Part shown: piece by piece, positions 15,092-33,183 of the stretch
How positions within the stretch are numbered: the first letter of the stretch is position 1
Layout: the number at the start of each line of letters is the position of its first letter
DNA from: Paracoccaceae bacterium
Lineage (GTDB): Bacteria > Pseudomonadota > Alphaproteobacteria > Rhodobacterales > Rhodobacteraceae
NCBI GenBank assembly: GCA_006226775.1
Contig: SBGD01000023.1
Location: forward strand, 1-34,806
Direction: 5' to 3'
Length of the DNA: 34,806 bases
Program-made: the position numbers and the translations under genes
Notes under the pieces: generated by a model
Database searches by the model: none
What the model was told of the DNA's origin: nothing
What the model saw: the letters and a program-made list of their open reading frames with translations, nothing else

Positions 15092-15096
15092 CGGGC

Positions 15097-18000
15097 TCAC
15101 TCCTCGTCGAAGCGGACCAGGCCCGCCGCCAGAGCCATCAATTCGGGGCTGACCATCGCCATGTCCTTGGCCACGGATTTCGCGGTTGCCTTCAGCACCG
15201 CCTTGTCGTCGCGGGTCGCCAGTCGCAGGTCGACCTTTTGCGCCAGTGCGGCCACCGTGCGGGCGACGAAGATGTCCAGCGCCTCGACCGGCAGGCCCAT
15301 TTCCTGGCAACGCGCGGCGACCTGGATCGAGCGGATCGAATCGCCTCCCGAGTGGAAGAAATCCTCCGTTACGCCCAGGGCCTCGCGTTTGAGCAGCGCC
15401 TTCCAGACCTTGGCGATCGCCGCTTCGGTCCCGGTCCGGGGCGGCACGGCATCGGCCTGCGCGGGCTCCGGCCAGTCGGGGGCGGGCAGGGCGGCGAGGT
15501 CGAGCTTGCCATTGGGCGTCAGCGGCAGCGCGTCGAGCCGGACGAAGTGATCGGGGATCATCACATGCGGCAGACGCTCGGCCAGATGGGCGCGGATGCC
15601 GCCCGGATCGGTGCCGGGTGGCGCCACGATATGGCCGACCAGCCTTTGTTCGCCCGCCGGGTGGGCATAGGGCCGCACCACCGCGCCGCGGATCGCCGGA
15701 TGGGTGTTGAGCGCGGTTTCCACCTCGGCCGGGTCGATGCGCACGCCGTGCAGCTTGACCATGTTGTCGATCCGACCGAGGAAATCGATCAGCCCGTCGG
15801 CGCGCCTTCGTGCCAGATCGCCGGTGCGGTAGAGCCGCGCGCCGGGGCGCGGATCGAAGGGATCGGGCAGGAAGGCCTTGGCCGTGCGCTCGGGCAGCCC
15901 GCGATAGCCGCGCCCGACGCCGATGCCGCCGATGTAGAGCTCGCCCACCACGCCCGCGGGCACCGGGGCGAGGTTGCGGTCGAGCACGTAGGCCGCCATG
16001 TTGCGGATCGGGCGACCGACGGTGATGATCGGCAAGGCGCCATCGGCGCGGCGCAGGGCGTCGAGCCGGTAATGGCACTGGTCGTCGGAGCACTCGGTCG
16101 AGCCATAGGTGTTGAGGATCGGGATCCGCGGATAGAGCGCCAGCCAGCGGCGGCAGAGATCGGTGGGCAGCGCCTCGCCGGTGGGCACCAGCCAGCGCAA
16201 GCGGCCGAGGTCGGGCGGATTGGCAGGGTCCGCCTCCGCTTCTTCCAGCAAAGCGCGCATCATCGAGGGCACCACCTGCAATACCGTGACCCCGTGCGCC
16301 ACGCAGGCAGCGATCAGCTTGGCGGGATCCTCGGCCAGGGCATCGGGAATGATCCGCACCGCGCCGCCACAGGCCAGGGGCGCGAGGTTTTGCCAGACCA
16401 CCACGTCGAAACTCTGCGGCGCGTTCTGGGCCAGCATGTCGGCGGCGGTAAAGCCGAGGTCCTCCAGCTTGCCCAGCGTGTGGTTCACCATGCCGAGGTG
16501 TTCGACCATCACGCCCTTGGGTTTGCCGGTCGAGCCGGAGGTATACATCATGTAGGCCAGATCGGTCCCCGCCACCGTGTCGAGCAGCGGATGGTGGCTG
16601 TCGTCGCGCGACAGCGCCTCGAAGGCAGCGACCTGGGGCGCATCGCCGGGCCACTCGGCGAGCCTTTCGGCCATCCCATCGGCCAGCGCGGCAGAGGTCA
16701 GCACGATCCGCGCTTGGCTGTCGTCCAGCACCTGGCGCATCCGCAGGGCGGGCGCCTCGGGTGCGAGCGGCAGGAAGGCGCCCCCGGCGCGCATCACCGC
16801 CAGCAGGGCAACGGCAAGGTCGCACCCGCGCGGCATTGCCACGGCAACCATGACCTCCGGCCCCACGCCGCGGGCGGCCAGCGCCCGGGCCAGCGGGTCG
16901 ACCCGGGCCAGCACCTGCGCGTAGCTCAAGGTCATGTCGCCTTCGGACAGGGCGGGCGCCTCGGGCGTCTCGGCGGCGCGGGCGGCGAAGAGGGCGTAGA
17001 CCGAGGTCTCGCCGGGCGGCGGCACCTCCGGCCCCTTCCCCTCGGCGATCACCCGCGCGGCGGCGGCGTTGTTCAGAAGCGCAAGGTCGCCGATCGGGCG
17101 GTCGGGCGTGGCCACCATCTGGCGCAGGAGCGTCTCGTAAGCCTCTGCCATGCCGCGGATGGTGGCGAGTTCGAACAGGTCGGCGGCGTATTTCCAGGCC
17201 AGTTGCAGGGCACCATGGGTGTCGCGCTTGGCCTCGACGTTGAGGTCGAACTGGCCGTCCTGCTGCGCCAGTTGCATGGGCTCGAGCGTCAGGTCGGCAA
17301 AGGGCACCGGGGGCTCGTCCTGGCCGGGCAGGAGGGCGGCCTGCAACTCCGGGTAGCGCTGGAATTTCTGCAAGACGAAGGTGGTCTGGAAGATCGGCGG
17401 GCGCGAGATGTCGCGCGCGGGCTGCACCGCGTCGACGATCAGCGAGAAGGGACACTCCTGGTGCTGAATTGCGCCGATCACCGCGGCGCGGGTGGCGGTG
17501 AGGTGGTCGCGGAAGCTGTGAGCAGGATCGAGGTCCGCCACCAGCGGCAGCATGTTGACGAAATCGCCGATCACATGGGTCAGCCCGGCCTGGCCGCGCC
17601 CGGAAAACGGCGTGCCGGTGACGATCCTGTTCTGCCCGGTATAGCGGTGCAGCAGCACCTGGTAGGCGGTGAGCAGCGCCATGAAAAGCGTCGCCTCCGC
17701 GCCGCGTGCCAGTTCTGCCACCTCGGTGACAAGCGCGGCATCGATGGACTGGAATTCGGTCGCGCCGCGGAAGGTCTGGGCCGGGGGGCGGGGATGATCG
17801 CGCGGCAGGTCGAGCAGCGGCAATTCGCCGGACAGACGCTCCTGCCAATAGGCCAGCGCCGGGGCGAAACCGCCGGCTGCGCCCTTGCTGCGCTCATCGC
17901 GGAGGTAGTGCTCATAGGTCAGGTCGAGGGGCGGCAGCGCGGCTTCGGGATCGGCGTAAAGCGCGCGCAATTCGTCCATCAGCACCACCAGCGACCACAG

Positions 18001-18504
18001 GTCGCCGGTGATATGGTGCAGCACCAGCGACAGAACGTGATGCCCGGGCGCGACGGCAAGGAGCCGGGCGCGCAGGGTGACATCGGCCTTCAGGTCGAAC
18101 GGTGCGCGGGCGTGCGCGGTGACCGCCGCCTGCACCTGAGCCGCGCCAAACCCGGAGGCGTCGATCACCTCGGCGGAGACCACATGGTCGGGCTTCGCGC
18201 GCTGCATCACCGTGCCGCCCTCGGCGCGGAACTCGGCGCGCAGGCAGGCATGGCGCGCACCCAGCACCGCCAGCGCCGCTAGCAGCCGCTCCAGGTCCAG
18301 CGGCCCGCGGATGGTCAGCGGCAGCGCCATGGAGAAGGCCGGGCTGTCGGGCGCCAGGGTCCAGAGGAACCACAGCGCCTCCTGCCCGTAGGAAAGCGGC
18401 GCCCAACCGCCGGTCACGCCGATCCGGTCGCGCAGGATCTGCTTCAACTGGGCCTTCAGCGCGTCCTTCGAGGTCTGCGCGGCAATTTCTGTTTCCTGTT
18501 TCAT
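15097..18504 (-). CDS. NRPS first elongation module, C-A-T
   Basis: The 1135-residue protein accepts the acyl chain from the upstream FAAL-ACAD-ACP protein. C domain (about 35-460): HHITGDLWS near 165, which keeps HHxxxD but lacks the following Gly. A domain (about 490-1000): YMMYTSGSTGKPKG near 658, QSFDVVVWQNL, LNTYGSTECSDDQ and YRTGDLARR. The code reads D-V-W-Q-V-T-T-D-D-K; the acidic pair at positions 330/331 suits a basic substrate, and the pattern resembles a diaminobutyrate code as I remember it (DIWELTADDK). With sbnA/sbnB in the same cluster, 2,3-diaminopropionate is the best guess. Carrier protein: DFFHSGGDSIRS (Ser near 1053), the GGDSI type usually found before epimerisation domains, though no E domain follows. 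Its ATG overlaps the FAAL stop (ATGA), and the next gene starts 5 bases after its own stop. Confidence 0.94.
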   Translation of the reverse strand: MKQETEIAAQTSKDALKAQLKQILRDRIGVTGGWAPLSYGQEALWFLWTLAPDSPAFSMALPLTIRGPLDLERLLAALAVLGARHACLRAEFRAEGGTVMQRAKPDHVVSAEVIDASGFGAAQVQAAVTAHARAPFDLKADVTLRARLLAVAPGHHVLSLVLHHITGDLWSLVVLMDELRALYADPEAALPPLDLTYEHYLRDERSKGAAGGFAPALAYWQERLSGELPLLDLPRDHPRPPAQTFRGATEFQSIDAALVTEVAELARGAEATLFMALLTAYQVLLHRYTGQNRIVTGTPFSGRGQAGLTHVIGDFVNMLPLVADLDPAHSFRDHLTATRAAVIGAIQHQECPFSLIVDAVQPARDISRPPIFQTTFVLQKFQRYPELQAALLPGQDEPPVPFADLTLEPMQLAQQDGQFDLNVEAKRDTHGALQLAWKYAADLFELATIRGMAEAYETLLRQMVATPDRPIGDLALLNNAAAARVIAEGKGPEVPPPGETSVYALFAARAAETPEAPALSEGDMTLSYAQVLARVDPLARALAARGVGPEVMVAVAMPRGCDLAVALLAVMRAGGAFLPLAPEAPALRMRQVLDDSQARIVLTSAALADGMAERLAEWPGDAPQVAAFEALSRDDSHHPLLDTVAGTDLAYMMYTSGSTGKPKGVMVEHLGMVNHTLGKLEDLGFTAADMLAQNAPQSFDVVVWQNLAPLACGGAVRIIPDALAEDPAKLIAACVAHGVTVLQVVPSMMRALLEEAEADPANPPDLGRLRWLVPTGEALPTDLCRRWLALYPRIPILNTYGSTECSDDQCHYRLDALRRADGALPIITVGRPIRNMAAYVLDRNLAPVPAGVVGELYIGGIGVGRGYRGLPERTAKAFLPDPFDPRPGARLYRTGDLARRRADGLIDFLGRIDNMVKLHGVRIDPAEVETALNTHPAIRGAVVRPYAHPAGEQRLVGHIVAPPGTDPGGIRAHLAERLPHVMIPDHFVRLDALPLTPNGKLDLAALPAPDWPEPAQADAVPPRTGTEAAIAKVWKALLKREALGVTEDFFHSGGDSIRSIQVAARCQEMGLPVEALDIFVARTVAALAQKVDLRLATRDDKAVLKATAKSVAKDMAMVSPELMALAAGLVRFDEE

Positions 18505-21500
18505 CCCGCGGCCTCCGCCTTCGATCCCATGCGCGCCACCAGCGCGGCCAGTTCGTCCTCGGAGAGCTCGTCGACCCGCGCCAGCAGCGCCAGATCGTCC
18601 TGTGCCGGCGCACCCGCGCCGTCGATCCGGGCCTCGGGCAGGGCGGCAATCGCGCGGGCAATGGCCGCGACCGAGGGGTGATCCCAGACCAGCGTGGGCG
18701 GCAGGTCGGTACCGGTCCAGTCCTCCAGCGCGCTGACCAGCATCATGGCGGCGACCGAATCCATGCCGTAGGCGGCAAAGCGGTCGCTGTCGGCAATCGT
18801 CTCGGGCCGCACCGCGAATTCCCGCGCCATCCAGCGTTTGAGCCAGGCGGAGACCACCTCGGTCCTGGCTGGTGGCGCGGGGGGCGTCTCCGGGGCCTGC
18901 GGTGCGGCGGCCGCCGCGGCCTGACCGGCGCGCGCCAGCAGCCCGTCGAGGGCGCGGTCCTCGCCGGGCAGGGATTGCTCGATGTCGCCGATGGTCTCGG
19001 CAAAGCCCTCGGCCAGCGCCTCGATCTGCGCGCGGTCGAGCAGCGCGGCCTCGCCCGCCGTGGCCGCCAAGGCCCGGGCCCTGAGCGCCTGACCGCGCAT
19101 CTCGGCCCAGGTCTCGGCCCGGTCAAGGGCGGCATCCGCGCCCTGCCGCGCCCTGATGCGAAGGGCGGCGCGCAGGATGCCGTAGGTGGCGATCTCGCCG
19201 ATCTGCAGGTAGGCCCATTGCCGCGCCTGCATCGGCCCGCCGAAAAGCGCCTCCTGCGCCTGTCCGCGCTGGGCGATCTCCTGCGCCATTTCGGCCAGGT
19301 CGGTGGCCAGCGTGGCCTCGCCCAGGGCCTCGGTCAGGAAACCGCACAGCTCCTCGGGCATATGCACCAGTCGCGCGCCGATATGCATGTGCATCGGCTC
19401 GGTCGGGCCCTCGAAGATGCGCAGCACACGGGCGTCGCGCAGGATCTGCGGCGCGATATTGGTCTCGACATAGCCGCGCCCGGCCAGTTGCTGGATCAGC
19501 CCGTCGGCGGCGCGCCAGGCATATTCCGGCCCGGAGGTCTTGCAGGCGCAGTAGAGGTCGATCGGCACCGGCGCCTCGCGGTCCAGCCGGTCGGCCACCA
19601 GCTCCATCAGCGCCTCGACGGCCGTCGCGACGGCCCCTAGCTCGGAAATCCGCAGCCGAGTGGCGGGGTTGTCGATCAATGCGCCGGTCGAGATCGTGCG
19701 CCGCGAAGCATGGCGCAGCATCAGCTGGGTGCAGCGCTTGATAATGCCCAGCGCCATGCCGGCAATGGCGAACCGGCCGTATTCCATCGCATTGGTGGCC
19801 GGGGTCATGCCGTCGCCCAGATCGCCCAGCCGGTCGCGCGCGGTGACCCGCACGCCCTCCAGCAGCACCTGGCTCTGCACCATGCCGCGCAGACCCATGG
19901 TCAGCGCTTCGGACCCGTTGCGCAGCCCCTCCGCGCCCTGCCGCAGCACGAAGCCCGAAACGCCGCGCGCCTCGCCCTCGCTGCCCTGGAGCGTGACGAA
20001 GGTATTGATCACCCCGGCCCAGCTTGCGGTGCCGGACCACCACTTGGTGCCCCAGAGCCGCCAGCCGCCGTTGCCGTCGGGCTGGCCGATCGAGGAGAGG
20101 TTGCGGATGTTCGACCCGGCATCGGCCTCGGTCATGGCGAAAGAGGCCAGTTCGCGCCCCGTCGCCAGCCGCGGCATCAATTCGTCGCGATTTTCCGGCG
20201 TGGCATAGCGCAGGATCGGGCGCAGCCCGAGCGCGTTGTTGACCACCACGAAGGAGGCGACAGTGGTATCGACCGCCGCAAGCTGCTGGAACATCACCGC
20301 CAACTCGCGGTTGCTCAGACCCAGCCCGCCATAGGTCTCGGGCGCGATCATGCCCAGCAGGCCGCGGTTGCCCATGTCCATCACCACATGCGGCGGAATC
20401 GTCCGCCGCTCGTCGATCAGGCGGGAGTTCATCCGGGTTTCGGCATAGTGGCGCAGCCAGCCCGAGAGATCGCGGACACGGTCCGTCATGCCGGTTGCAG
20501 GGGGCGTGTCTGCCGCCGCGGCCTTGGCGGCTTCGGCATATTTCGGCGCCACCCAGGTCAGCGCGGCTTTCAGCGAGCCATCGGCAAAGCCCGCGCGGCA
20601 GGCGTGGCGTTTCTTCTTTCCGGTGTGGGTCTTGGGCAGGGCCTTGGGGCCGAGAAAGACGATCGCGCCGATCTCAAGCTCGTGCTGCTGCGAGACCGCG
20701 GCGCGCAGGGTGCGGATCAGGTGATCGCGCAGCCGCCCGGCCTCTTCGCCACCGGCGCGCAGGGTGCGCAGCGCGGTGCGGCGCAGCTCATGGGCGATCA
20801 CCAGCCGCAACTCGCCACCGATCTCGGCGGCAAAGGCCGCCGCGCCGCCGGGTTCAAGCGCCGGGTCGCAGGCCTCGACGGTCAGTTCCAGGTCCTCGGG
20901 GCTGATATTGACGCCGCGGAGGACCATGACGTCATCCATCCGGCCAAGGATGTAGAGCGCCCCGTCCAAACGCGCGCCAAGATCGCCGGTGCGCAGGTAG
21001 TCCGGCCCCTCCTCCTGCCCGGCCAGGCGGGCGTGGAACCTTGCCGTCGTCAGATCAGGGCGGCGCCAGTAGCCTTGGGCGACCAGCGGCCCGGCCTGCC
21101 AGATCTCGCCGACCGCGCCATCGGGCAGGGGCGCGCCGGTGTCGGGATCGGCGATGACCACCTCGGTGGCCATCCGCGTGCCGTTGCAGGCGACAAGCGT
21201 GCGGGTGCGCCCGTCCTCCGCCCCTGCGGGCACCCCGTCCTCTGCCCCTGCGGGCACAAGGCGCCGGGCGGCCAGCGCGTCACCGTCGAAGACCCGCGCC
21301 AGCGGCGCGCAACCGGGGCCATTGGCCGAGGTCACCAGCGTGTTCTCGGCCATGCCGTAGCTCGGGCATTGCACCCTGGGCCCCAGCCCGTGCGGCGCGA
21401 AGGCCTGCTGGAAGGCGGCGATGGTCTCGGCGCGCACCGGCTCGGCGCCGTTGAGCAGGGCGACCAGCGCGCTCAGATCGAAGCCCGCGCGTCGGTCCTC

Positions 21501-22310
21501 GGGGATGGCGAGACAGGCCTCGTAGCCGAAGTTCGGCGCGGCGGAATGGGTGATGCGCCCGGCGGTGAGCGCCTCGAGCCAGGCGGCGGGCCTGCGGGCA
21601 AACCCGGCGGGGGCCATCAACTCGCCCCGGCAGCCGGCATGAACCGGCAGGACACAGCCGAAAAGCAGCCCGAGGTCGTGGTAATGCGGCAGCCAGGACA
21701 TCAGGCGGCTGGCGGCGTCGATGGCAAAGACCCGCTGCATCTCGGCGGAATTGGCAAGGATATTGCCATGGCTGATCGCCACGCCCTTGGGGGCGGCGGT
21801 CGAGCCCGAGGTATATTGCAGGTTGGCAATCGCCTCCGGTCCGAGGCCAGGGTCGCGCCAGTCGCGGGCATCGGCAAGGTCGGCCAGGGTCAGGACCGGC
21901 AGGCCCGCCAGCGCCTCGGAGAGCACGGGCTGCATCTCGGGCGTGGTCCAGGCCAGCAGCGCTTGGCTGTCGGCGGCGACGTTGCGGCTGTGGTCCAGCG
22001 GCCGGTTGGGCCGGGGATGGCGGATCGGGACGGCGATGGCCCCGGCATAGAGACAGCCGAAAAACGCGCCCAGAAACTCCAGCCCGGCGGGCAGGGCGAT
22101 CAGCACGGGCTGCTGGTGCAGATCGCGGCCCTGCGCCCGGGCGGCGGCCAGAAGGGCCACGGCGGTGGCGCGGGCGCTGCGGTCGAGGTCGGCAAAGGTG
22201 ACCTGGGCGTCACTGCGGGCTCCGTCGATCAGAAAGCGAAACGCCGTTTCGGCGCCCCGGGTCGCTGCTTGCTGACGAAGAACGGAGATCAGGCTGCGGG
22301 TATCCGTCAT
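18501..22310 (-). CDS. trifunctional lipid loader: fatty acyl-AMP ligase, acyl-CoA dehydrogenase, ACP
   Basis: The 1269-residue protein is the first gene of the minus-strand operon. Residues 1 to about 590 are a fatty acyl-AMP ligase: LQYTSGSTAAPKGVAISH near 168, then SWLPHYHDLGLLFG near 210, typical of FAALs, which pass acyl-adenylates to carrier proteins. Residues about 607-1130 are an acyl-CoA dehydrogenase-type flavoprotein, with AMTEADAGSN, GTKWWSGTASW, and a late RIFEGPTEPMHMH whose Glu (about 970) is the likely base. The C-terminal ACP carries YGMDSVAAMM (Ser near 1182). The natural reading is activation of a fatty acid, loading on the ACP, alpha,beta-desaturation and transfer to the first C domain. 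The start ATG has GAGGAT about 7 bases upstream. A 24-bp tandem duplication inside the FAAL part adds VPAGAEDG twice. Confidence 0.92.
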   Translation of the reverse strand: MTDTRSLISVLRQQAATRGAETAFRFLIDGARSDAQVTFADLDRSARATAVALLAAARAQGRDLHQQPVLIALPAGLEFLGAFFGCLYAGAIAVPIRHPRPNRPLDHSRNVAADSQALLAWTTPEMQPVLSEALAGLPVLTLADLADARDWRDPGLGPEAIANLQYTSGSTAAPKGVAISHGNILANSAEMQRVFAIDAASRLMSWLPHYHDLGLLFGCVLPVHAGCRGELMAPAGFARRPAAWLEALTAGRITHSAAPNFGYEACLAIPEDRRAGFDLSALVALLNGAEPVRAETIAAFQQAFAPHGLGPRVQCPSYGMAENTLVTSANGPGCAPLARVFDGDALAARRLVPAGAEDGVPAGAEDGRTRTLVACNGTRMATEVVIADPDTGAPLPDGAVGEIWQAGPLVAQGYWRRPDLTTARFHARLAGQEEGPDYLRTGDLGARLDGALYILGRMDDVMVLRGVNISPEDLELTVEACDPALEPGGAAAFAAEIGGELRLVIAHELRRTALRTLRAGGEEAGRLRDHLIRTLRAAVSQQHELEIGAIVFLGPKALPKTHTGKKKRHACRAGFADGSLKAALTWVAPKYAEAAKAAAADTPPATGMTDRVRDLSGWLRHYAETRMNSRLIDERRTIPPHVVMDMGNRGLLGMIAPETYGGLGLSNRELAVMFQQLAAVDTTVASFVVVNNALGLRPILRYATPENRDELMPRLATGRELASFAMTEADAGSNIRNLSSIGQPDGNGGWRLWGTKWWSGTASWAGVINTFVTLQGSEGEARGVSGFVLRQGAEGLRNGSEALTMGLRGMVQSQVLLEGVRVTARDRLGDLGDGMTPATNAMEYGRFAIAGMALGIIKRCTQLMLRHASRRTISTGALIDNPATRLRISELGAVATAVEALMELVADRLDREAPVPIDLYCACKTSGPEYAWRAADGLIQQLAGRGYVETNIAPQILRDARVLRIFEGPTEPMHMHIGARLVHMPEELCGFLTEALGEATLATDLAEMAQEIAQRGQAQEALFGGPMQARQWAYLQIGEIATYGILRAALRIRARQGADAALDRAETWAEMRGQALRARALAATAGEAALLDRAQIEALAEGFAETIGDIEQSLPGEDRALDGLLARAGQAAAAAAPQAPETPPAPPARTEVVSAWLKRWMAREFAVRPETIADSDRFAAYGMDSVAAMMLVSALEDWTGTDLPPTLVWDHPSVAAIARAIAALPEARIDGAGAPAQDDLALLARVDELSEDELAALVARMGSKAEAAG
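21212..21259 (-). repeat. 24-bp tandem duplication inside the FAAL coding region
   Basis: Two adjacent 24-base units (21212-21235 and 21236-21259) differ at one base near the middle and at the last two positions. They encode two copies of the octapeptide VPAGAEDG in a surface-like Gly/Ala/Asp segment. The reading frame is kept. It looks like a slippage expansion and may be variable between strains. Confidence 0.85.
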
Positions 22311-24475: not shown

Positions 24476-26350
24476 ATGTGCGGGATCTGCGGCGCATACA
24501 GACCTTCCGGCGGATGCCGCGCCTCCGCGCGGGTGATCGGCGCCATGCAGGGCGCCCTGCGCCACCGCGGGCCGGATGATGCGGGCAGCTTCGGCGACGG
24601 TCGCGCGGCGCTGGGCTTCCGGCGGCTGGCGATCGTCGATCTCGAGACCGGCAACCAGCCGATCGCCAACGAGGACCGCACCATCCGGGTGGTCTGCAAT
24701 GGCGAGATCTTCAATCACCTCGAGCTGCGCGCCGAGATGGAAGCGCGCGGCCATGTCTTTGCCACCCGCAGCGATGTCGAGGTGCTGGTGCATCTCTACG
24801 AGGAGGAAGGCGACGGGCTGCTGGATCGGCTCAACGGCCAGTTCGCCTTTGCGCTTTACGACGCGCGCCGCAACCGGATGCTCTGTGCCCGCGATCCCTT
24901 CGGGATTGCGCCGTTCTTTCACAGCGATATCGGCGGCGAGTTCGTCTTTGCCTCCGAGATCAAGGCGATCCTCGCCTATCCCGGCCTCTCGCGGCGGGTC
25001 GATCTGACCGGGCTCGACCAGGTGTTGTCGCTGCCCGGGCTGGTCAGCCCGCGCACCATGTTCGAGGGCATCCACAGCCTGCCCGCCGGGCATCGCATCG
25101 TGATCGACGCGGCGGGCGTGGATATCGCGCCCTACTGGGATGCGGACTACCCGCGCGCGGATGCGGTGCAGGACATGACGCCCGAGGACGCCCGCGCCGC
25201 GCTGGAGGCCGCATTGGACGCGGCGGTGCGGCGGCGGTTGCAGGGCGATGTGCCGGTCGGCGCCTATCTCAGCGGCGGGCTCGATTCCTCGCTGATCGCC
25301 AGCCTGATGGCGCGGGCGGTGGCCGACCCGATCCGCAGCTTCTCGATCACCTTCGGCGACCCGATGTTCGACGAGGATCGCTTCCAGGACGCGGTTTCCG
25401 GCCATATCGGCGCGCAGCATCACCGGATCGCCCATCCCAGGGCCGAGATCGAAGGCGCGCTGCGCCGCGCGATCTGGCACAGCGAATGCCCGGTGAAGGA
25501 GACCTACAACACCGCCTCGATGGCGCTTTCCGGGGCTGCGCGCGCCGGCGGCGTGCCGGTGGTGCTGAGCGGCGAGGGCGCGGATGAGTTGTTCGCCGGC
25601 TACATCGGCTATCGCTACGATGCCTTCCGCCGGATGTCCGGGCGCGGGGGCGCGCCTTGCCCCGCCGAACAGGCGCTGCGCCGCCAGGTGCTGGGCCATC
25701 CGACGCTGCTCTACGAAAAGGACCTGCTGGCGCATGAGGCCGAGCGCCGCGCGCTTTATTCCGACGAATTGCGCGCCGAAATGGACGGTTTCCGCTTCAC
25801 CAACTGGCCGCTGATCGACGGCTCCAAGCTGGAAGGGCGGCACCCGGTCCACCAACGCTCCTACCTCGATCTGAAACTGCGGCTGGCCGATCACCTGGTC
25901 GGCGATCACGGCGACCGGATGCTGATGGCGAACTCGGTCGAGGGCCGCTTTCCCTTCCTCGATGTCGAATTGTTCGAGGTGATCCGCACCCTGCCGCCCG
26001 ACCTTCTGCTGCACGATTACGTCGAGAAGTTCATCCTGAAGGAAACCGCCCGCCCCTACCTGCCGCCGGGCATTGTCGAGCGCGAGAAATTCGCCTTTGC
26101 CGCGCCGGGCAGCGCCTACCTGTTGCGTGCCAAAATCCCCTGGATCGAGGAGATGCTGGCCCCCGAGGTGATCCGCGCGCAGGGCTATTTCGACCCCGCC
26201 GCGGTCGAGGCGCTCAAGCACAAGGCGCTGGCAGAGGAGGAACGCCCGACCGGCGGCGCGCCCGAGGATCCGCTGCTGACCGTGCTCAGCTTCGGGCTGT
26301 TTCTCGAGGTCTTCGAGATGCCCTGGCTGGGCCAGCGGAGGGCGGCGTGA
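24476..26350 (+). CDS. asnB: glutamine-hydrolysing asparagine synthetase-like amidotransferase
   Basis: The 624-residue protein has the full two-domain AsnB layout. The N-terminal glutaminase begins MCGICGAY with the catalytic Cys2, followed by LRHRGPDDAGSF, ALGFRRLAIVD and VCNGEIFNH. The synthetase half has the ATP pyrophosphatase loop YLSGGLDSSLIAS near residue 265, LSGEGADELFAGY and ANSVEGRFPFLD. Because Cys2 is present, it should transfer ammonia from glutamine to an adenylated carboxylate. In biosynthetic clusters such enzymes make an amide on a side chain or on the released product. Beta-lactam-forming relatives (carbapenam synthetase, beta-lactam synthetase) usually lack the Cys, which argues against that role here. 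Its TGA overlaps the next ATG by one base. Confidence 0.9.
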   Translation: MCGICGAYRPSGGCRASARVIGAMQGALRHRGPDDAGSFGDGRAALGFRRLAIVDLETGNQPIANEDRTIRVVCNGEIFNHLELRAEMEARGHVFATRSDVEVLVHLYEEEGDGLLDRLNGQFAFALYDARRNRMLCARDPFGIAPFFHSDIGGEFVFASEIKAILAYPGLSRRVDLTGLDQVLSLPGLVSPRTMFEGIHSLPAGHRIVIDAAGVDIAPYWDADYPRADAVQDMTPEDARAALEAALDAAVRRRLQGDVPVGAYLSGGLDSSLIASLMARAVADPIRSFSITFGDPMFDEDRFQDAVSGHIGAQHHRIAHPRAEIEGALRRAIWHSECPVKETYNTASMALSGAARAGGVPVVLSGEGADELFAGYIGYRYDAFRRMSGRGGAPCPAEQALRRQVLGHPTLLYEKDLLAHEAERRALYSDELRAEMDGFRFTNWPLIDGSKLEGRHPVHQRSYLDLKLRLADHLVGDHGDRMLMANSVEGRFPFLDVELFEVIRTLPPDLLLHDYVEKFILKETARPYLPPGIVEREKFAFAAPGSAYLLRAKIPWIEEMLAPEVIRAQGYFDPAAVEALKHKALAEEERPTGGAPEDPLLTVLSFGLFLEVFEMPWLGQRRAA

Positions 26351-26982
26351 TGGGCGCTTTCGTCATCGCGGTCAGCGGCACCTCCGGCTCGGGCAAAAGC
26401 ACCTTGCTCAGCCAGCTGGCCGAACGGATCGAGCGCACCACGCGGATGCATTTCGACGATTACATCGTGCTGGGCAGCGATCCCGGCGACATCCAGAACT
26501 GGCTCGATGCCGGCGCCGACCCCGATGCCATCGAGACGCCCGCCATGGTCGATCACCTGAAGGCCCTGCGCCAGGGCGGCGCGCTTGCCCTGCGCGGCGC
26601 GGCGCAGGAAGGCCCCGCCGATTTCGTACTGCTGGAAGAGCCTTTCGGCAGTGCCCGCGCCGCCATAGCACCCCATGTCGACCTTTCGGTGCATATTGAC
26701 CTGCCGCCCGACATCGCCCTGGCGCGGCGGTCCCTGCGCACCATCACCAGCCTGCCCGACAACCCGCCCCATGCCCGGCAGGCCGCGGCGCTGTCGGACC
26801 TGGAACTGCAGTTCGTCGCCTATCTCGGCGCCGGGCGCGCCGCCTATGCCGCGGCGGAAACCGCGGCGCGGGCGGCGGCGGACCTGACCCTCGACGGGCT
26901 GGAGCCGGTCGACATCCTCGTGGACCGGGTGCGCGCGGTGCTGATCGCGCGCGGAGCGCTGGAAAAGGACACGGTCTCATGA
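26350..26982 (+). CDS. P-loop small-molecule kinase, uridine-kinase-like
   Basis: The 210-residue protein has the Walker A motif GTSGSGKST (residues 10-18) and an overall plan like uridine kinase and related small-molecule kinases: MHFDDYIVL, an LLEEPFG segment and an arginine-containing LID-like stretch ALARRSLRTI. The substrate is unknown. Candidates are an amino acid hydroxyl (supplying the O-phospho substrate that threonine-synthase-like or SbnA enzymes use) or the finished product for self-protection. GGAGGG 7 bases before the ATG at 26350 favours this start over the GTG three bases earlier. The gene is coupled on both sides: TGATG with asnB and ATGA with the dehydrogenase. Confidence 0.75.
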   Translation: MGAFVIAVSGTSGSGKSTLLSQLAERIERTTRMHFDDYIVLGSDPGDIQNWLDAGADPDAIETPAMVDHLKALRQGGALALRGAAQEGPADFVLLEEPFGSARAAIAPHVDLSVHIDLPPDIALARRSLRTITSLPDNPPHARQAAALSDLELQFVAYLGAGRAAYAAAETAARAAADLTLDGLEPVDILVDRVRAVLIARGALEKDTVS

Positions 26983-27833
26983 GCGACAGGACATTCCGCA
27001 GGCTGGGCGTGGTGGGCGGCGGGGTGATCGGCGCGGGTGTTGCGCATCTTTTCGCGCAATCGGGGCACGCGGTCACGCTGGTCGATGCGGCGCAGGGCGC
27101 GCTCGACACCGCCCGCGCCAATATCGCCGGCAATGCGCGGATGTACCGGATGCTCGACAAGGCCCTGCCCGACCGCGAGGTGGTGCTGGGCAACCTGACC
27201 TTCACCACCGATCTCATGGCGCTGGCCGAGGCGGATTTCGTGATCGAGAACATCACCGAGAACGTCGCCGCCAAGGCAGAGGTCCATGCGGAGATCGACG
27301 CCATGGTGGGGGCAGAGGTGCCGGTGGCGGCCAATACTTCGGCCATCCCGATCACCCGCATCGCCGGATTCGGCGCCTATCCCGAACGGGTGATCGGGAT
27401 GCATTTCATGAACCCGCCGCCGGTGATGCCCATGGTCGAGATCATCCGCGGCACCCATAGCTCCGACACTGCGCTGGGCGCGGGCGCAGCGCTGGTGGCG
27501 CAGGCGGGCAAGCAGTCGATCCTGGTCAATGACAGCCCCGGTTTCGTCACCAACCGGGTGATGATGCTGATGGTCAACGAGGCGATGTTCCTGGTCCACG
27601 AAGGCGTGGCGGGCGTGCAGGAGGTCGACCGGCTGTTCAAGACCTGTTTCGGGCACAAGATGGGGCCGCTCGAGACCGCCGACCTGATCGGGCTCGACAC
27701 GGTGAAGCTGTCGCTCGACATCCTCTACGACGAATTCAACGACCCCAAGTACCGCCCCTGTCCGCTGCTCAAACGGCTGGTCTATGCCGGCCAGACCGGG
27801 CGCAAGGCGGGGCGGGGCTTCCACCATTATTGA
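26979..27833 (+). CDS. 3-hydroxyacyl-CoA dehydrogenase-type oxidoreductase (FkbK/ZmaG/ClbD-like)
   Basis: The 284-residue protein is of the length usual for the 3-hydroxybutyryl-CoA dehydrogenase family. It has a Rossmann motif GVVGGGVIGAG (10-20), ANTSAIPITRIA, the catalytic His142 in MHFMNPPPVMPMVEII, and NDSPGFVTNRV. Placed next to a stand-alone ACP and an acyl-CoA dehydrogenase, it matches the enzymes that oxidise the primary alcohol of a seryl- or glyceryl-ACP in aminomalonyl-ACP (ZmaG, ClbD) and methoxymalonyl-ACP (FkbK) synthesis. There is no FkbH-type glycerate loader here, which points away from hydroxy- or methoxymalonyl. Its ATG overlaps the kinase stop (ATGA), and 18 bases separate it from the ACP gene. 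Confidence 0.88.
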   Translation: MSDRTFRRLGVVGGGVIGAGVAHLFAQSGHAVTLVDAAQGALDTARANIAGNARMYRMLDKALPDREVVLGNLTFTTDLMALAEADFVIENITENVAAKAEVHAEIDAMVGAEVPVAANTSAIPITRIAGFGAYPERVIGMHFMNPPPVMPMVEIIRGTHSSDTALGAGAALVAQAGKQSILVNDSPGFVTNRVMMLMVNEAMFLVHEGVAGVQEVDRLFKTCFGHKMGPLETADLIGLDTVKLSLDILYDEFNDPKYRPCPLLKRLVYAGQTGRKAGRGFHHY

Positions 27834-27851
27834 CCAGAAAGGGAGTTTGAG

Positions 27852-28106
27852 ATGCAGGACAAAGCCATCAAGGACCAGATTTCCGAGTTCATGGCACAGG
27901 CGTTTTCCGGCGCCGTGATCGCCCATGATCAGGACATCTTCGAGGCCGGGTTCGGCAATTCGATGTTCGCCATGCAACTGGTGAATTTCGTCGAAGTGAC
28001 CTTCGGTATCGAGGTCGACAGCGATGATCTCGACATCGACAACTTCCGTTCGATCGACCGGGTGGCGGCGCTGGTCCAGCGCAAGCGCGCGGTCGCGGCG
28101 GCGTGA
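27852..28106 (+). CDS. stand-alone acyl carrier protein for an extender unit (FkbJ/ZmaH/ClbE-like)
   Basis: The 84-residue, acidic, helical carrier protein carries the phosphopantetheine site EAGFGNSMFAMQLV, with Ser37. The NSMFAMQLV context, rather than the DSL of housekeeping ACPs, is what I remember for methoxymalonyl/aminomalonyl carrier proteins. AAGGGAG lies about 8 bases before the ATG. The predicted cargo is serine loaded by the synthetase-like ligase two genes downstream, oxidised in place to aminomalonyl and handed to the PKS acyltransferase. The PPTase in the cluster should activate it. Confidence 0.9.
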   Translation: MQDKAIKDQISEFMAQAFSGAVIAHDQDIFEAGFGNSMFAMQLVNFVEVTFGIEVDSDDLDIDNFRSIDRVAALVQRKRAVAAA

Positions 28107-29269
28107 ATATCGCCGCCGAGGTGACCTCGGCGCAGGCCGAGGCCCGCGCCCATTGGCAGGCGGTGGCGCAGGCCGAAGTCGCCCCCTTTGCCCGCCAGAT
28201 CGACCGCGAGGCGGCGGTGCCGGAGGCGGTCATGGCGGCCCTGCGCGAGGCCGGGGCCTTTGCCAGCGGTTTTCCCGAAGCCTTCGGCGGGCCCGCGGGC
28301 GCGCAGGGCGATCCGGTGGGCGCGGCTTTGGCCCATGGCGCGCTGCACGAGGCCTTGGGACGGGCCAGCGCCTCGGTGCAGGGCGTGCTGAACGTGCATC
28401 ACATGGGCGGCTCGGCCCTGGCGCGCTGGGGCAGCGCGGCGCAGAAGGCGCATTGGGGGCCGCTGCTGACCAGCGGCGCGACCCGCTGCGCCATCGCCAT
28501 TACCGAGCCGGAGGTGGGCAGCGATGCCACGGCTGTCAGGACCCGGGCGGAGGTGGACGGCGACGGTTGGGTGGTGAGTGGCGAAAAGGCCTGGATCACC
28601 TGTGGCGCCTCGGCGGACCTCTTCGTGCTGATCGCGGCGTCGGCGGCGGGGCCGGTGGCGCTGCTTTTGCCGCGCGAGGCGCCGGGCCTGAGCATCGCGC
28701 CGATCCCCGACATGCTGGGCTGCCGGGGGTATGCCATGGCGCGGCTCATCCTCGAGGACGTGCGGCTTCCGGGCGAGGCGCTGCTGGGCAAGCCGGGGTT
28801 CGGGGTGAGCCATGTGGCGGCGACCGGGCTCGAATCGGGGCGGCACAACCTTGCCTGGGGCTGCGTCGGGCTGGCCGAGGCCTGCCGGCAGGCGGCGCTG
28901 TCCCATGTGCAGCGGCGCGCGCAATTCGGCGAGAAGATCGCGGAATTCCAGCTGGTCCAGCAGTTGATCGCCCGGATGAGCACCGAGATCCACGCCGCGC
29001 GGCTGATGTGCCGGAGTGCCGCCGTGGCGCGCGGGCAACGGGCGATGACCGCGGCGAAGGAGGCGACCATGGCCAAGTATTTCGCCTCGACCATGGTGGG
29101 CCGCGTGGCGAAGGACGCCCAGCAATTGCACGGCGCGGCGGGCATCGGGCCGAAGACGCCGCTCGAGATGTATTTCCGCGATGCCCGCATCATGGAGGTG
29201 ATCGAGGGCACGACGCAGATCCTCGAGGTCATGATCGCCCGGTTCAGCTACCAGGAGGGTCCGGCGTGA
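28103..29269 (+). CDS. acyl-CoA dehydrogenase-type flavoprotein (FkbI/ZmaI/ClbF-like)
   Basis: The 388-residue protein has the standard FAD-binding and substrate motifs AIAITEPEVGSDA, GEKAWITCGASAD, RRAQFGEKIAEFQLVQQ and VIEGTTQILEV, with the usual catalytic Glu near residue 368. In the known cassettes this partner works with the 3-hydroxyacyl-CoA dehydrogenase to complete alcohol-to-carboxylate oxidation on the ACP. It is separate from, and only distantly like, the dehydrogenase fused in the FAAL protein, so the cluster has two ACADs with different jobs. It starts with GTG inside the ACP stop (GTGA) and is coupled to the next gene the same way. Confidence 0.88.
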   Translation: MNIAAEVTSAQAEARAHWQAVAQAEVAPFARQIDREAAVPEAVMAALREAGAFASGFPEAFGGPAGAQGDPVGAALAHGALHEALGRASASVQGVLNVHHMGGSALARWGSAAQKAHWGPLLTSGATRCAIAITEPEVGSDATAVRTRAEVDGDGWVVSGEKAWITCGASADLFVLIAASAAGPVALLLPREAPGLSIAPIPDMLGCRGYAMARLILEDVRLPGEALLGKPGFGVSHVAATGLESGRHNLAWGCVGLAEACRQAALSHVQRRAQFGEKIAEFQLVQQLIARMSTEIHAARLMCRSAAVARGQRAMTAAKEATMAKYFASTMVGRVAKDAQQLHGAAGIGPKTPLEMYFRDARIMEVIEGTTQILEVMIARFSYQEGPA

Positions 29270-30429
29270 TCCGTCGCACCCTGTCGCTGGCGAAGCTCTC
29301 GCCCGACAGCCTGCGCGCCATCGAGGACGGGTTGCGCGCGATCGGCGCGGATATCCGCGCGATGGAATTCGACGCCCGGACCGCGGAATTGATGGTCGAG
29401 GTGGAAACCGAAGCGGCGGCCGAGCAGGTGGAAACCTTCGTCGAGGGGATGCGCCGGACCCATCGGCTGGTGGCGCGCAAGGTGCTGGGGGCGCATCGCG
29501 GCGCGCGTGGTGCGGGGTGCACCGACGCGGAACTGGCGGCTTGCGGCGATCTGCATTTCATCGACGACGGGTTGACGGCGATCAATGGCACGCTGCTGAA
29601 GCTCTTTCGGTTCTTCGAGCGCACCTTCAAGGGCTTCGCCGATGACTTCGGCGCCGAGGAACAGCATTACCCGGTGATGGTGCCGACCCGGCTGTTGCAG
29701 GACGTCGGCTATTTCGGCAACTTCCCGCAGCATGTGACGCTCTGCTCGCATTTTCCCGATAGCCTGCCAGTGCTGGAAACCGTGTCCTCCACCGCGCAAG
29801 CCGCGCAAGACCCGCCCACCGGGTGCTTTGCCGAACACGCCGCCGCGCCGGGCCATGTGCTGACGCCCGCGGTCTGCCTGCCCTGCTACAGCCAGCACCG
29901 CGATCTGGAACTGGCGCCGGGCGCGGTCAAGGTGCTGACCATGCAGAACCACGTTTTCCGCTACGAGGCCAATCGCTTCGCGCCGCTGTCACGCGGCTGG
30001 GATTTCTCGGTGCGCGACATCGTGTTCTTCGGCAGTCATGCCGACCTGGTGCGCCTGCGTTCCGAGGTGATGGAGAAGGTCATGGCGCTCTGCGCCGCGC
30101 TGGACCTCGAGGTGACGCTGGAACTGGCGAACGATCCGTTCTTCCTCGACACCGGGCGCGACAAGATCGTCTATCAGCGCATGGGCGAGGTCAAATACGA
30201 GCTTCTGTTCAATATCCCGCATCGCGTGGATCCGCTGGCGGTGTCGTCCTTCAACCTGCACCGGGATTTCTATACCTCGGTCTACAACACCCGGCAGGGG
30301 GCGGGCCTCGCCGACAGCGCCTGCATGGGCTTCGGGCTGGAGCGCTGGCTTTACGGGTTCGTCACGCAGAAGGGGCTGGACCCGGCGGGCTGGCCCGAGA
30401 TGGCGCGGCAGGGGATCAGCGCGGGATAA
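29266..30429 (+). CDS. aminoacyl-tRNA synthetase-like amino acid:carrier-protein ligase
   Basis: The 387-residue protein has a class II synthetase core of the atypical seryl-tRNA-synthetase type. FRYEAN (231-236) is motif 2-like and CMGFGLERWL (353-362) motif 3-like. Cys187 or Cys204/207, with Glu234 and Cys353, are candidate zinc ligands. Relatives from Bradyrhizobium and Agrobacterium do not charge tRNA; they aminoacylate small carrier proteins encoded next to them with Gly or Ala (work of Mocibob, Weygand-Durasevic and colleagues, from memory). The first 80 residues look like a small alpha/beta domain, perhaps for carrier recognition. The gene directly follows ACP and ACAD genes and has an excellent AGGAGGG before its GTG start (GTGA overlap). 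By context I infer serine as substrate, for aminomalonyl-ACP synthesis. The 3' end overlaps the convergent PPTase gene by 14 bases. Confidence 0.85.
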   Translation: MIRRTLSLAKLSPDSLRAIEDGLRAIGADIRAMEFDARTAELMVEVETEAAAEQVETFVEGMRRTHRLVARKVLGAHRGARGAGCTDAELAACGDLHFIDDGLTAINGTLLKLFRFFERTFKGFADDFGAEEQHYPVMVPTRLLQDVGYFGNFPQHVTLCSHFPDSLPVLETVSSTAQAAQDPPTGCFAEHAAAPGHVLTPAVCLPCYSQHRDLELAPGAVKVLTMQNHVFRYEANRFAPLSRGWDFSVRDIVFFGSHADLVRLRSEVMEKVMALCAALDLEVTLELANDPFFLDTGRDKIVYQRMGEVKYELLFNIPHRVDPLAVSSFNLHRDFYTSVYNTRQGAGLADSACMGFGLERWLYGFVTQKGLDPAGWPEMARQGISAG

Positions 30430-31090
30430 GGGCGGCGGGGCGCAAGGCGTGGCGCGTGACGCGGGGCGGCGGGCTGCGGCTGGCGAGGGCCAGCCAGTGC
30501 GGGCCGCACGAATCGCTGTGCAGCCACCAGTCGCCGGGCGCGCCGTGTTCCGGCGGCAGGGTGGTGAGGGTCGGCGCGGGGCCGGACAGGCCGATCTCTT
30601 GCGGCGGCAGCGAGAAGCCGAGGCCGGTGGCCTTCATCACCGCTTCCTTCACGGTCCAGACCTGAAAGAACCGCGCCCCCGGGTCGGCGCCGGCCTGCAT
30701 CCCGGCCACCTCCTCGGGGCGAAAGACGCTGCGGGCGACGCCTTCGCGGTCGGGCATGTCGCGCTGGAGTTCGACGTCCACGCCGACCTCGGCGCCGCGG
30801 CTCAGGGCGACGGCGACCAGCCCCTCGGTATGGCTGAGATTGAAGTGCAGAACCTGGCCCGGAAGGAAGGGTTTGCCCTGGGCATTCTCGGCAAAGGCAA
30901 GCGCCGTCACCCCCGCCCGGGCCAGCGCATGGTGCAACAGCGCATGGGCGATGACATGGGTGCGCCGGGCAGGTTGGACGACGAAACGCCGGGCGCGGTC
31001 CTGCTCTGCCGCCGTCAGGTGGGGCATGAGGGCGGGCAGGAGCGCATCGTCGCGTGGCGCCACGGGGCAGAGGTAAAGGGTGATCTCCAT
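30416..31090 (-). CDS. Sfp-type 4'-phosphopantetheinyl transferase
   Basis: The 224-residue protein transfers phosphopantetheine from CoA to carrier-protein serines. It carries the family motifs FNLSHTEGLVAVA (83-95), GVDVELQR (103-110, Mg-binding) and WTVKEAVMKATG (145-156). It should activate the five assembly-line carrier domains and the stand-alone ACP. The ATG at 31090 gives the usual Sfp N-terminus (MEITLYLCP); a TTG at 31120 is an alternative. It lies 33 bases after the sbnB stop, probably the third gene of the sbnA-sbnB-PPTase operon, and converges on the ligase gene. Confidence 0.93.
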   Translation of the reverse strand: MEITLYLCPVAPRDDALLPALMPHLTAAEQDRARRFVVQPARRTHVIAHALLHHALARAGVTALAFAENAQGKPFLPGQVLHFNLSHTEGLVAVALSRGAEVGVDVELQRDMPDREGVARSVFRPEEVAGMQAGADPGARFFQVWTVKEAVMKATGLGFSLPPQEIGLSGPAPTLTTLPPEHGAPGDWWLHSDSCGPHWLALASRSPPPRVTRHALRPAALIPR

Positions 31091-31123
31091 GGCGTCAGAC
31101 TGGCCGGATCGAGCGGGCAAAGT

Positions 31124-32161
31124 CTACCAGCGCGAGACATCGCCGAAGAAATTGCCGATCTCCAGCGCTGTCCCGTTCGCGCGGGCGCGGCGGTAGACGA
31201 AATCGCCGAGCGCGAGGTCGAGGATGCCCATGCCGAAGGGGGAATAGATCACCGGGGTCTCGGGCGAGAGGGTCACGCGGCCCTCGAGGACCGCGGCGAT
31301 GGTGCCGGTGACGAAATCGCGGTTGCCGGCGCTTTGCTCGGCCAGGTGCGGCGCGGTTCCGGCCTTCAGGCAGTGGTCGACATCGTCGAAGACGTTCTGT
31401 GCCGCGAGGATCTGCTGGGGGGCGATGTCGCGCAGCGAGATGTTGAGCACAGTCTGGCCGGGGCCGAAGCGCCAGTCCGGGTCGAGATAGGGCGCGCCGG
31501 CGCTGGTGGTGAAGATGACGATCTGCGCGGCCAGCGCCTCCTCCAGCGTTGCCGCTGTCCTCGGCTCGGGTCCCGGCGTGGCGCCCACATGGGCCACCAG
31601 CGCCGCGGCGGAGCGGGGGTCGAGGTCATGGGCGAGGAGCGTGCCGATCTGCCAGCCGGTGGTGCGGAACTGGTCGAGGATGGTGCGGGCGATGATGCCG
31701 CAGCCCACCACCGCGACGCTCTCGGCCCGGCGGTCCAGCCCGGAACAGACCCCGGCGCCCAGCACGGCAGAGGCGGCGGTGCGGGCGGCGGAAATCGCCG
31801 CCCCTTCGAGGATGGCATAGGGATAGCCGGTCTCGGGGGAATTCAGGATCACCACCGCCGAGGCCCGCGCCAGCCCGGCGGCGGTATTGCCGGGATAGGA
31901 GGCGATCCACTTGATGCCGCTGAGGCTCATCTCCGGCGCGTCGATCGCGGCGGGCAGGGCGATGATGCGGTTGGCGGGCTGGTCGGGAAAGCGCAGGAAG
32001 TAGCTGTCGGGATTGACCGTTTCGCCCCGGTCATGGGCGCTGTAGGTCCGCGCCACCAGAGCCTCGATCGCGCGCGCATGGGCGGTCAGGATGGCGCGCA
32101 CCGCATCGCCGGGCACGAGGTGCATCTCGGGGTGCAGCAGGCCGGGATCGGTGCCGGTCAT
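31124..32161 (-). CDS. sbnB: 2,3-diaminopropionate biosynthesis protein SbnB
   Basis: The 345-residue protein belongs to the ornithine cyclodeaminase/mu-crystallin family and closely follows SbnB in its landmarks: SGIKWIASYPGN (81-92), ILNSPETGYPYAILEG, ISAARTAASAV, and the NAD-binding VAVVGCGIIART (149-160). SbnB oxidatively cleaves N-(1-amino-1-carboxyl-2-ethyl)-glutamate to L-2,3-diaminopropionate and 2-oxoglutarate. The start codon overlaps the sbnA stop (ATGA), so the pair is translationally coupled. Together they supply a diamino acid, most likely to the first NRPS module. Confidence 0.93.
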   Translation of the reverse strand: MTGTDPGLLHPEMHLVPGDAVRAILTAHARAIEALVARTYSAHDRGETVNPDSYFLRFPDQPANRIIALPAAIDAPEMSLSGIKWIASYPGNTAAGLARASAVVILNSPETGYPYAILEGAAISAARTAASAVLGAGVCSGLDRRAESVAVVGCGIIARTILDQFRTTGWQIGTLLAHDLDPRSAAALVAHVGATPGPEPRTAATLEEALAAQIVIFTTSAGAPYLDPDWRFGPGQTVLNISLRDIAPQQILAAQNVFDDVDHCLKAGTAPHLAEQSAGNRDFVTGTIAAVLEGRVTLSPETPVIYSPFGMGILDLALGDFVYRRARANGTALEIGNFFGDVSRW

Positions 32162-33183
32162 TCGGCGGCGACCTTCTGCGGCAGCACCTCGCGCGGGTCG
32201 CAGGCCAGATCCTCGGCGCTCAGCCCGAAGCGGTCGGCGACCCAAGCCGCGTTGTAGACCGTGTCGAGGTATTTCTCGCCGCTGTCGGGCGAGATGGCGA
32301 CGACGGTGCGCCCGGCGGGAAAGATCTCGGGGAAGGCGGCGATGGCGGCCAGCACCGATCCGGTCGAACCGCCCGCCAGCAGCCCGTGGCAGCGCGCCAG
32401 CCAGTGACAGAGGTGCACCGCCGCGGTCTCGGAAATCAGGATCGCATCGCCCAGCTCCTCGGCCCGGAAGATCTCGGGCCTGCGGCTGGTGCCGAGGCCG
32501 GGGATATGGCGCGGCCCGGCGCTGCCGGAGAAGGTCAGCGAGCCGAGACTGTCCACCGCCAGCACCTGCACCTTGGGGTGATGGTCGCGGAAATAGCGCA
32601 GACAGCCCATCAGCGTGCCGGTGGTGCCGGCGCCGATCACCACGCAATCGACATCGCCGATGGCCGCCACGATCTCGGGGCCGGTGTGATCGTAATGCGC
32701 CGCCGGGTTGGCGGGATTGGCATATTGATTGGTCCAGATCAGGTCCGGGTCGCGCGCCACAAGCTCGCGGATATGGGCGATGCGGGTGCCGAGATAGCCG
32801 CCATGGGCATCGCGTTCGGTCACCTCGTGGATCTCGGCGCCATAGGCGCGGATCGTCGCCACCGATTGCCGCGCCGCATGGGGATCGACCACGCAGGTGA
32901 AACGGTAGCCGCGTTCCGCCGAGAGCGCCGCCAGCGCGATGCCGAGGTTGCCGGAGGAGGATTCGATCAGCCGCGCGCCGGGATGAAGCCGCCCCTCGCG
33001 CTCGGCCGCGTCGAGGATCGACTGCGCGGTCTTCCACTTGATCGAGCCGGCGGGGTTGAACCACTCGAGCTTCAGCACCAGCCGGGCGTCGACCAGTCCC
33101 TCGATCTGCCGCATCTGGCCATGGGTCAACGGGGCTCTCCCGCAGGGTGAAATGAATTGAGAGGAAACCGGATCACGATCCAA
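32158..33183 (-). CDS. sbnA: 2,3-diaminopropionate biosynthesis protein SbnA
   Basis: The 341-residue fold-type II PLP enzyme is of the cysteine-synthase family. SbnA joins O-phosphoserine and glutamate to give the SbnB substrate. Seen here: KLEWFNPAGSIKWKTA with the PLP lysine (about Lys49; WK replaces the common DR after it), ESSSGNLGIALA (74-85), CVVDPHAARQ, DAHGGYLGTRIA, WTNQYANPAN and LAGGSTGSVLAAI, all matching SbnA landmarks. The start is uncertain. The TTG at 33183 keeps the family's N-terminal PL motif but lies only about 6 bases from the start point predicted by the TTGACA/TAAGGT promoter. A TTG at 33129 has GGGAGAG in front, and the first in-frame ATG is at 33114. Confidence 0.92.
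   Translation of the reverse strand: MDRDPVSSQFISPCGRAPLTHGQMRQIEGLVDARLVLKLEWFNPAGSIKWKTAQSILDAAEREGRLHPGARLIESSSGNLGIALAALSAERGYRFTCVVDPHAARQSVATIRAYGAEIHEVTERDAHGGYLGTRIAHIRELVARDPDLIWTNQYANPANPAAHYDHTGPEIVAAIGDVDCVVIGAGTTGTLMGCLRYFRDHHPKVQVLAVDSLGSLTFSGSAGPRHIPGLGTSRRPEIFRAEELGDAILISETAAVHLCHWLARCHGLLAGGSTGSVLAAIAAFPEIFPAGRTVVAISPDSGEKYLDTVYNAAWVADRFGLSAEDLACDPREVLPQKVAAE

Follow-up and report, generated by a model that had tools for sequence, protein, structure and literature searches.

A four-gene block in a 34,806-nucleotide contig of a Paracoccaceae bacterium (SBGD01000023.1 of assembly GCA_006226775.1; hereafter the window, i.e., the whole stretch of DNA analysed) probably makes aminomalonyl-acyl carrier protein for the polyketide module of the gene cluster in which it lies, and a relative of the class II tRNA synthetases appears to load the amino acid, probably serine, from which this unit would be formed by two dehydrogenases. 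The block is located on the + strand and encodes a 3-hydroxyacyl-CoA dehydrogenase-like protein of 284 residues (HAD, 26979–27833; Pfam 3HCDH_N and 3HCDH), a stand-alone acyl carrier protein of 84 residues with the phosphopantetheine site at Ser37 (ACP, 27852–28106; PP-binding, E 1.9e-5), an acyl-CoA dehydrogenase-like protein of 388 residues matching the full acyl-CoA dehydrogenase in Pfam (ACAD, 28103–29269), and a 387-residue amino acid:carrier-protein ligase resembling class II seryl-tRNA synthetase (SerRS), which starts with a GTG codon at 29266 and ends at 30429. The preliminary description had proposed four coupled genes at 26979–30429, and all of these open reading frames were recovered there. 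The HAD and ACP genes are separated by 18 bases, while the ACP/ACAD and ACAD/ligase pairs overlap by 4 bases. Since the 4-base overlaps continue upstream through a P-loop kinase and an AsnB-type amidotransferase gene (AsnB/kinase and kinase/HAD), the block constitutes the 3′-end of a six-gene + strand operon (24476–30429).

In the pathway we propose, the SerRS-type ligase would adenylate an amino acid, with L-serine as the most likely candidate, and pass it to the phosphopantetheine of the ACP. The HAD would then convert the side-chain alcohol (CH2OH) of seryl-ACP to an aldehyde, which the ACAD, acting on the hydrate or enol, would convert to the carboxylate. The acyltransferase (AT) of the protein composed of ketosynthase (KS), AT, ketoreductase (KR), and ACP domains would accept aminomalonate from the stand-alone ACP, and the KS would add it to the chain bound to the nonribosomal peptide synthetase (NRPS), creating an alpha-amino unit that would become beta-hydroxylated after the action of the KR. 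The order of the oxidations assumed here is that of the zwittermicin and FK520 pathways. Part of this order is covered by PMC6395733.

The first three genes had been considered to be of the extender-cassette type, and this assignment was supported by comparison with the cassettes in which FkbH is the fourth gene. In the HAD tree, a single branch (95/95) split 35 cassette HADs (29 from ligase and 6 from FkbH cassettes) from 18 generic HADs, and the test did not reject one common origin for the HADs of the ligase cassettes (p 0.196). The window HAD shares 53% identity over 266 aa with its counterpart in a cyanobacterial FkbH cassette, and its closest relatives in the plasmid collection were two ligase-cassette HADs (59%), followed by a series at 50–54%. 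Six loci were inspected, five from this series (L111–L114 and L116) and the more distant L115, and all of them proved to be HAD-ACP-ACAD-FkbH in this order, which is also the gene order of the window, where the ligase occupies the place of FkbH. No annotated cassette was found around the HAD match of Xenorhabdus. The stretches ANTS, GMHFMNP, VEII, and NDSPGF, which we take to be the expected catalytic features, are present in the window HAD. The ACP site (FGNSMFAMQLV, with Ser37 inside) has the signature GFGNSMFAMQLVNFVE in the window versus GFVNSMFAMQLVLFVE in the ACPs of the FkbH cassettes L112 and L113, and the whole ACP is 40–50% identical to three FkbH-cassette ACPs (50% for L112). Similarly, 10 window-clade, 6 FkbH-cassette, and 5 other ligase-cassette ACADs formed one clade of 21 rows (100/97) in the ACAD tree, in which the long-branch warning concerned rows outside this clade. 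The window ACAD is 40% identical to that of L113 and contains the base Glu368 and the motif IMEVIEGT.

The claim that the usual loaders are lacking proved to be true for the operon, but not for the whole cluster. FkbH (TIGR01686) was absent from the window genome in a search in which 6/6 FkbH-cassette records, serving as control, scored above the cut-off. No protein of the operon gave an AMP-binding match that would indicate a stand-alone adenylation (A) domain, but the NRPS carries its own A domains. The HAD, ACP, and ACAD might also produce hydroxymalonyl-ACP from glycerate loaded by an enzyme encoded elsewhere, with the ligase working on another carrier. This arrangement is conceivable because L115, on an Alkalihalophilus plasmid, has a distant ligase (4521–5893, 24% identity) with its own ACP immediately before a full FkbH cassette, and because the ligase-cassette genome G304 has FkbH on another contig. 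However, five of the six ligase-cassette genomes searched (G000, G299, G300, G301, and G307) contained no FkbH in the same controlled search, and the start of the ligase gene overlaps the ACAD stop, thus we regard this explanation as the least probable of those considered here. The variant in which an FkbH pathway has its loader elsewhere was rejected by the lack of FkbH in the window genome.

The ligase had no Pfam match at E 0.001. Its best NCBIfam match was the amino acid--ACP ligase PRK07080 (126 bits, below the cut-off of 357), followed by the type-2 SerRS PRK00960 (99 bits, below the cut-off of 611). The AlphaFold model (18 sequences) had a mean pLDDT of 80.8 with weak parts at about 151–190 and 231–240, and in the fold search it retrieved type-2 SerRS at the top, then the glycine:carrier-protein ligase Bll0957; the nine top matches were type-2 SerRS (3w3s, 2cim to 2cjb) with 19–20% identity. 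The zinc ligands C204/E234/C353 are invariant in 29/29 cassette ligases, in all 21 rows of the Bll0957-type carrier-protein ligases (CCLs), and in both SerRS rows, while R232 and R360 are likewise invariant in the 29 cassette and 21 CCL rows. The motif 2/3 residues of class II enzymes are retained in 29/29 aligned cassette ligases. The ligase tree had 74 rows, in which the 10 ligases of the window clade grouped together (86/66, not starred), and the 21 CCL rows made up a separate 100/100 clade, leaving the window ligase outside that characterised group. Both of the annotated Streptomyces cassettes that we examined have the ligase recorded as a hypothetical protein.

The homology of the ligase to Bll0957 raises the question of whether the block works like the rhizobial ACP-ACAD-CCL-DUF1839 operon, where the ACP would be charged with Gly or Ala, which would then be modified and handed to an acceptor other than a polyketide synthase (PKS). 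The ACP-ACAD-ligase order in the Rhizobium operon L030 (4485–7805) is identical to that of the window, and a transfer to surface sugar was proposed in PMC2922099 (2010). Nevertheless, no DUF1839 was found among the scanned window proteins, no HAD is annotated in L030, and the window ACP and ACAD are only 27% and 22% identical to their L030 counterparts. As the window ligase lies outside the CCL clade and its HAD and ACAD partners belong to the extender type, we consider this mode of action very improbable. A plain CCL operon was rejected, since the ACP, the ACAD, and the ligase clade are all different. The L030 operon is situated immediately behind nif genes.

As to the amino acid, the PDB titles for Bll0957 name glycine, while in a table of the review PMC9437257 the amino acids are Ala, Gly, and Ser, with the Ser-adding amino acid:carrier-protein ligases placed under SerRS and credited to Mocibob 2010. 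We infer serine from the chemistry, which would start at a C3 hydroxyl and end in a C3 carboxylate, because among the Gly, Ala, and Ser reported for these families only Ser has the C3 hydroxyl needed by the HAD.

The proposed receiver of the extender unit is the KS-AT-KR-ACP module (6300–10892, − strand), whose AT, the single one found in the window, carries the motif GYSIG. According to Table 2 of PMC4207774, GYSxG occurs in the ACP-using ATs ZmaA and ZmaF, and GHSxG in CoA-using ATs. In our by-eye tally, GYS was present in 17/24 ATs of ligase cassettes and 5/5 ATs of FkbH cassettes, and in 0/18 other ATs (L115 gave no AT match). When the PDB was searched with the window AT, ZmaA ranked second of 85 matches.

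To survey the occurrence of the block, genome contigs were scanned once with a three-ligase alignment, which gave 87 relatives, of which 80 loci were kept. A HAD of 200 bits or more was taken as cassette-grade, and KS and AT were counted at 200 and 140 bits, respectively. Such a HAD was present in 23 of the 80 loci, which had been fetched by the ligase alone, so that a chance neighbourhood was set aside; the number rises to 26 if HADs elsewhere in the genome are included (L035 and L046 on the same contig, L049 on another contig). All 10 window-clade ligases, that of the window included, have ACP and ACAD genes upstream within about 2.5 kb, and nine of these loci also have the HAD upstream, while at the remaining one (L035, Granulicella) the HAD, with 63% identity, is on the contig of the ligase but about 20 kb away from it. 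The loci with all four components have them on a single strand, in four gene orders. Cassette loci occur in six phyla (Pseudomonadota, Acidobacteriota, Myxococcota, Binatota, Actinomycetota, and Chloroflexota), those of Binatota and Chloroflexota being metagenome bins. In the family of the window genome, a ligase match at E ≤ 1e-10 was detected in 5/394 genomes, and the one match above 33% identity was that of the window itself. The ligase loci L027–L029 lack the HAD, and the Rhizobium operon L030 has no PKS annotated nearby. An M1 metallopeptidase gene (26855–28243), perhaps a target or resistance gene, lies in the Streptomyces ligase-cassette cluster L026.

A KS or AT was found in 14 of the 23 HAD-bearing loci, compared with 4 of the 57 other loci (Fisher p 1e-6, relatedness ignored), and for three of these four (L035, L046, and L049) the genome contains a cassette-grade HAD outside the locus. 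Recurrence of the block in genomes without any PKS had been named as evidence that would refute the proposal, and no refutation came from this comparison. All 16 cassette genomes searched contained a HAD at least 52% identical to that of the window (the next best HADs reached at most 45%) and matched the KS-AT stretch at E ≤ 1e-60, although many of the matches were mainly to the KS. In nine genomes, the matches listed included a KS-AT on the HAD contig at a distance of 30 kb or less, several of the 16 genomes being drafts.

Several observations weigh against the formation of aminomalonyl-ACP from serine or its use by the PKS module. Hydrophobic residues at the RXR positions are the second mark of ATs for ACP-bound extenders in PMC4207774, but these positions are S-A-Q in the window AT, neither basic nor hydrophobic, and its top PDB match, 5yda, has GHSLG. 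GHS was also found in 7/24 ligase-cassette ATs, and if three further ATs with GHS, located on cassette contigs (L126, L139, and L145), are added, the GYS count becomes 17/27 versus 0/15. The earlier proposal that a synthetase-like ligase loads a PKS extender cassette gains from the HAD and ACAD clades, the ACP signature, the lack of FkbH, and the GYSxG motif, but not from the RXR positions. The relatedness-aware pair test of HAD versus PKS on the ligase tree was not significant (6 pairs, low power), and in 7/16 genomes no KS-AT was among the matches listed within 30 kb of the HAD. Furthermore, 14 actinobacterial ligase cassettes (L025, L026, L045, L052, L053, L055, L057–L062, L065, and L073) have an ACAD of another lineage, outside the extender clade and without the usual catalytic Glu. 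The sequence features of the ligase prove no serine specificity: the window-clade pocket (V203, T225, W245, and D251, with C207 in 9/10) is unlike that of both SerRS and the CCLs, and by eye no serine-marking residue could be seen in the window-clade-conserved columns common to the cassette ligases and SerRS versus the CCLs.

Such a pocket would also fit a ligase loading another amino acid, such as 2,3-diaminopropionate, threonine, or a different beta-hydroxy amino acid, from which the dehydrogenases would form some other ACP-bound unit. The presence of the 2,3-diaminopropionate pathway genes SbnA and SbnB in the window and at loci L031–L035 points in the same direction, whereas these genes were not seen within the loci L036–L039, which share the cassette. 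By established chemistry, a C3 carboxylate is required in an extender and can be obtained by the HAD/ACAD pair from serine, not from threonine, and an amine is not a usual HAD substrate, thus we judge a substrate other than serine unlikely. The cassette label requires four changes on the ligase tree (shuffled mean 23), which fits at least two assemblies of the cassette, or repeated loss. It is a doubtful but conceivable scenario that class II tRNA-synthetase relatives were recruited as extender loaders at least twice, together with an FkbI-type ACAD in one case and with the other-lineage ACAD of actinobacteria in another, and that the window clade loads a non-serine amino acid, giving an undescribed extender unit.

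The remaining genes of the operon that may supply aminomalonyl-ACP encode a glutamine-dependent amidotransferase of AsnB type (24476–26350, +; TIGR01536 over the cut-off), also present in loci L031–L034, and a P-loop kinase (26347–26982, +; PRK and PRK08233-like). The kinase was found in L031–L035, all five of which are window-clade loci containing SbnA and SbnB, but not at L036–L039, which lack these genes as well; L063 and L070 have SbnA/SbnB matches without the kinase. It might provide O-phosphoserine for diaminopropionate synthesis. Downstream, on the − strand, lie genes for a phosphopantetheinyl transferase (30416–31120; Pfam ACPS), SbnB (31124–32101; TIGR03944 over the cut-off), and a PLP enzyme (32158–33183; PALP) called SbnA-like from its position beside SbnB. 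The NRPS/PKS line also occupies the − strand and begins with a loading protein composed of AMP-ligase, ACAD, and carrier-protein domains (18501–22310), which suggests a desaturated acyl starter. It is followed by an NRPS module of condensation (C), A, and peptidyl carrier protein (PCP) domains (15097–18504), a C-A-PCP module with a by-eye methyltransferase-like insert (10889–15100), the KS-AT-KR-ACP module, and a C-A-PCP module with a thioesterase domain (2227–6285), all assigned by Pfam. The start at 15100 was deduced from the overlap with the next gene, as the open frame in which the Pfam matches were obtained extends farther upstream (10889–17848). The window is an entire contig of a 4.58 Mb genome, therefore the cluster may be cut; one further modular KS-AT match was found in this genome, on contig C33.

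If the proposed pathway is correct, a relative of the translation machinery is coupled to polyketide extension, and FkbH and A domains are joined by a third type of loader for ACP-bound extender units. No account of a synthetase-like ligase taking part in extender formation was found in the open-access literature searched. The soluble ligase–ACP pair could then be applied for introducing amino groups into polyketides, and the cassette could serve as a genome-mining marker for cryptic clusters using aminomalonyl units.

Among the known systems, the proposed pathway resembles that of zwittermicin (ZmaG/H/I/J). For the zma genes, the sequence comparison consisted of the ZmaA AT in the PDB. According to PMC6395733 and PMC4207774, a HAD, a stand-alone ACP, and an ACAD likewise process serine bound to the ACP and supply an AT in that pathway, but the serine is loaded there by the adenylating enzyme ZmaJ (PMC6395733), whereas the window has a class II tRNA-synthetase relative in that place. 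The FkbH-type methoxymalonyl- and hydroxymalonyl-ACP cassettes share the gene order, the HAD and ACAD clades, and the ACP signature with the window, but their fourth gene product, FkbH, activates a glycolytic C3 unit (PMC6395733) and not an amino acid. The Bll0957-type ligases agree with the window ligase in the class II synthetase fold, in the zinc ligands, and in having an adjoining ACP gene (L030), but constitute their own clade, have 346 aa compared with the 387 aa of the window ligase, whose N-terminal part is longer, and are accompanied by no annotated HAD or PKS in L030. Finally, the type-2 (methanogenic) SerRS enzymes provide the best fold matches of the ligase model and their zinc site aligns with that of the ligase, but they consist of about 520 residues and show the low identity given above, and the window ligase is found in a carrier-protein context.

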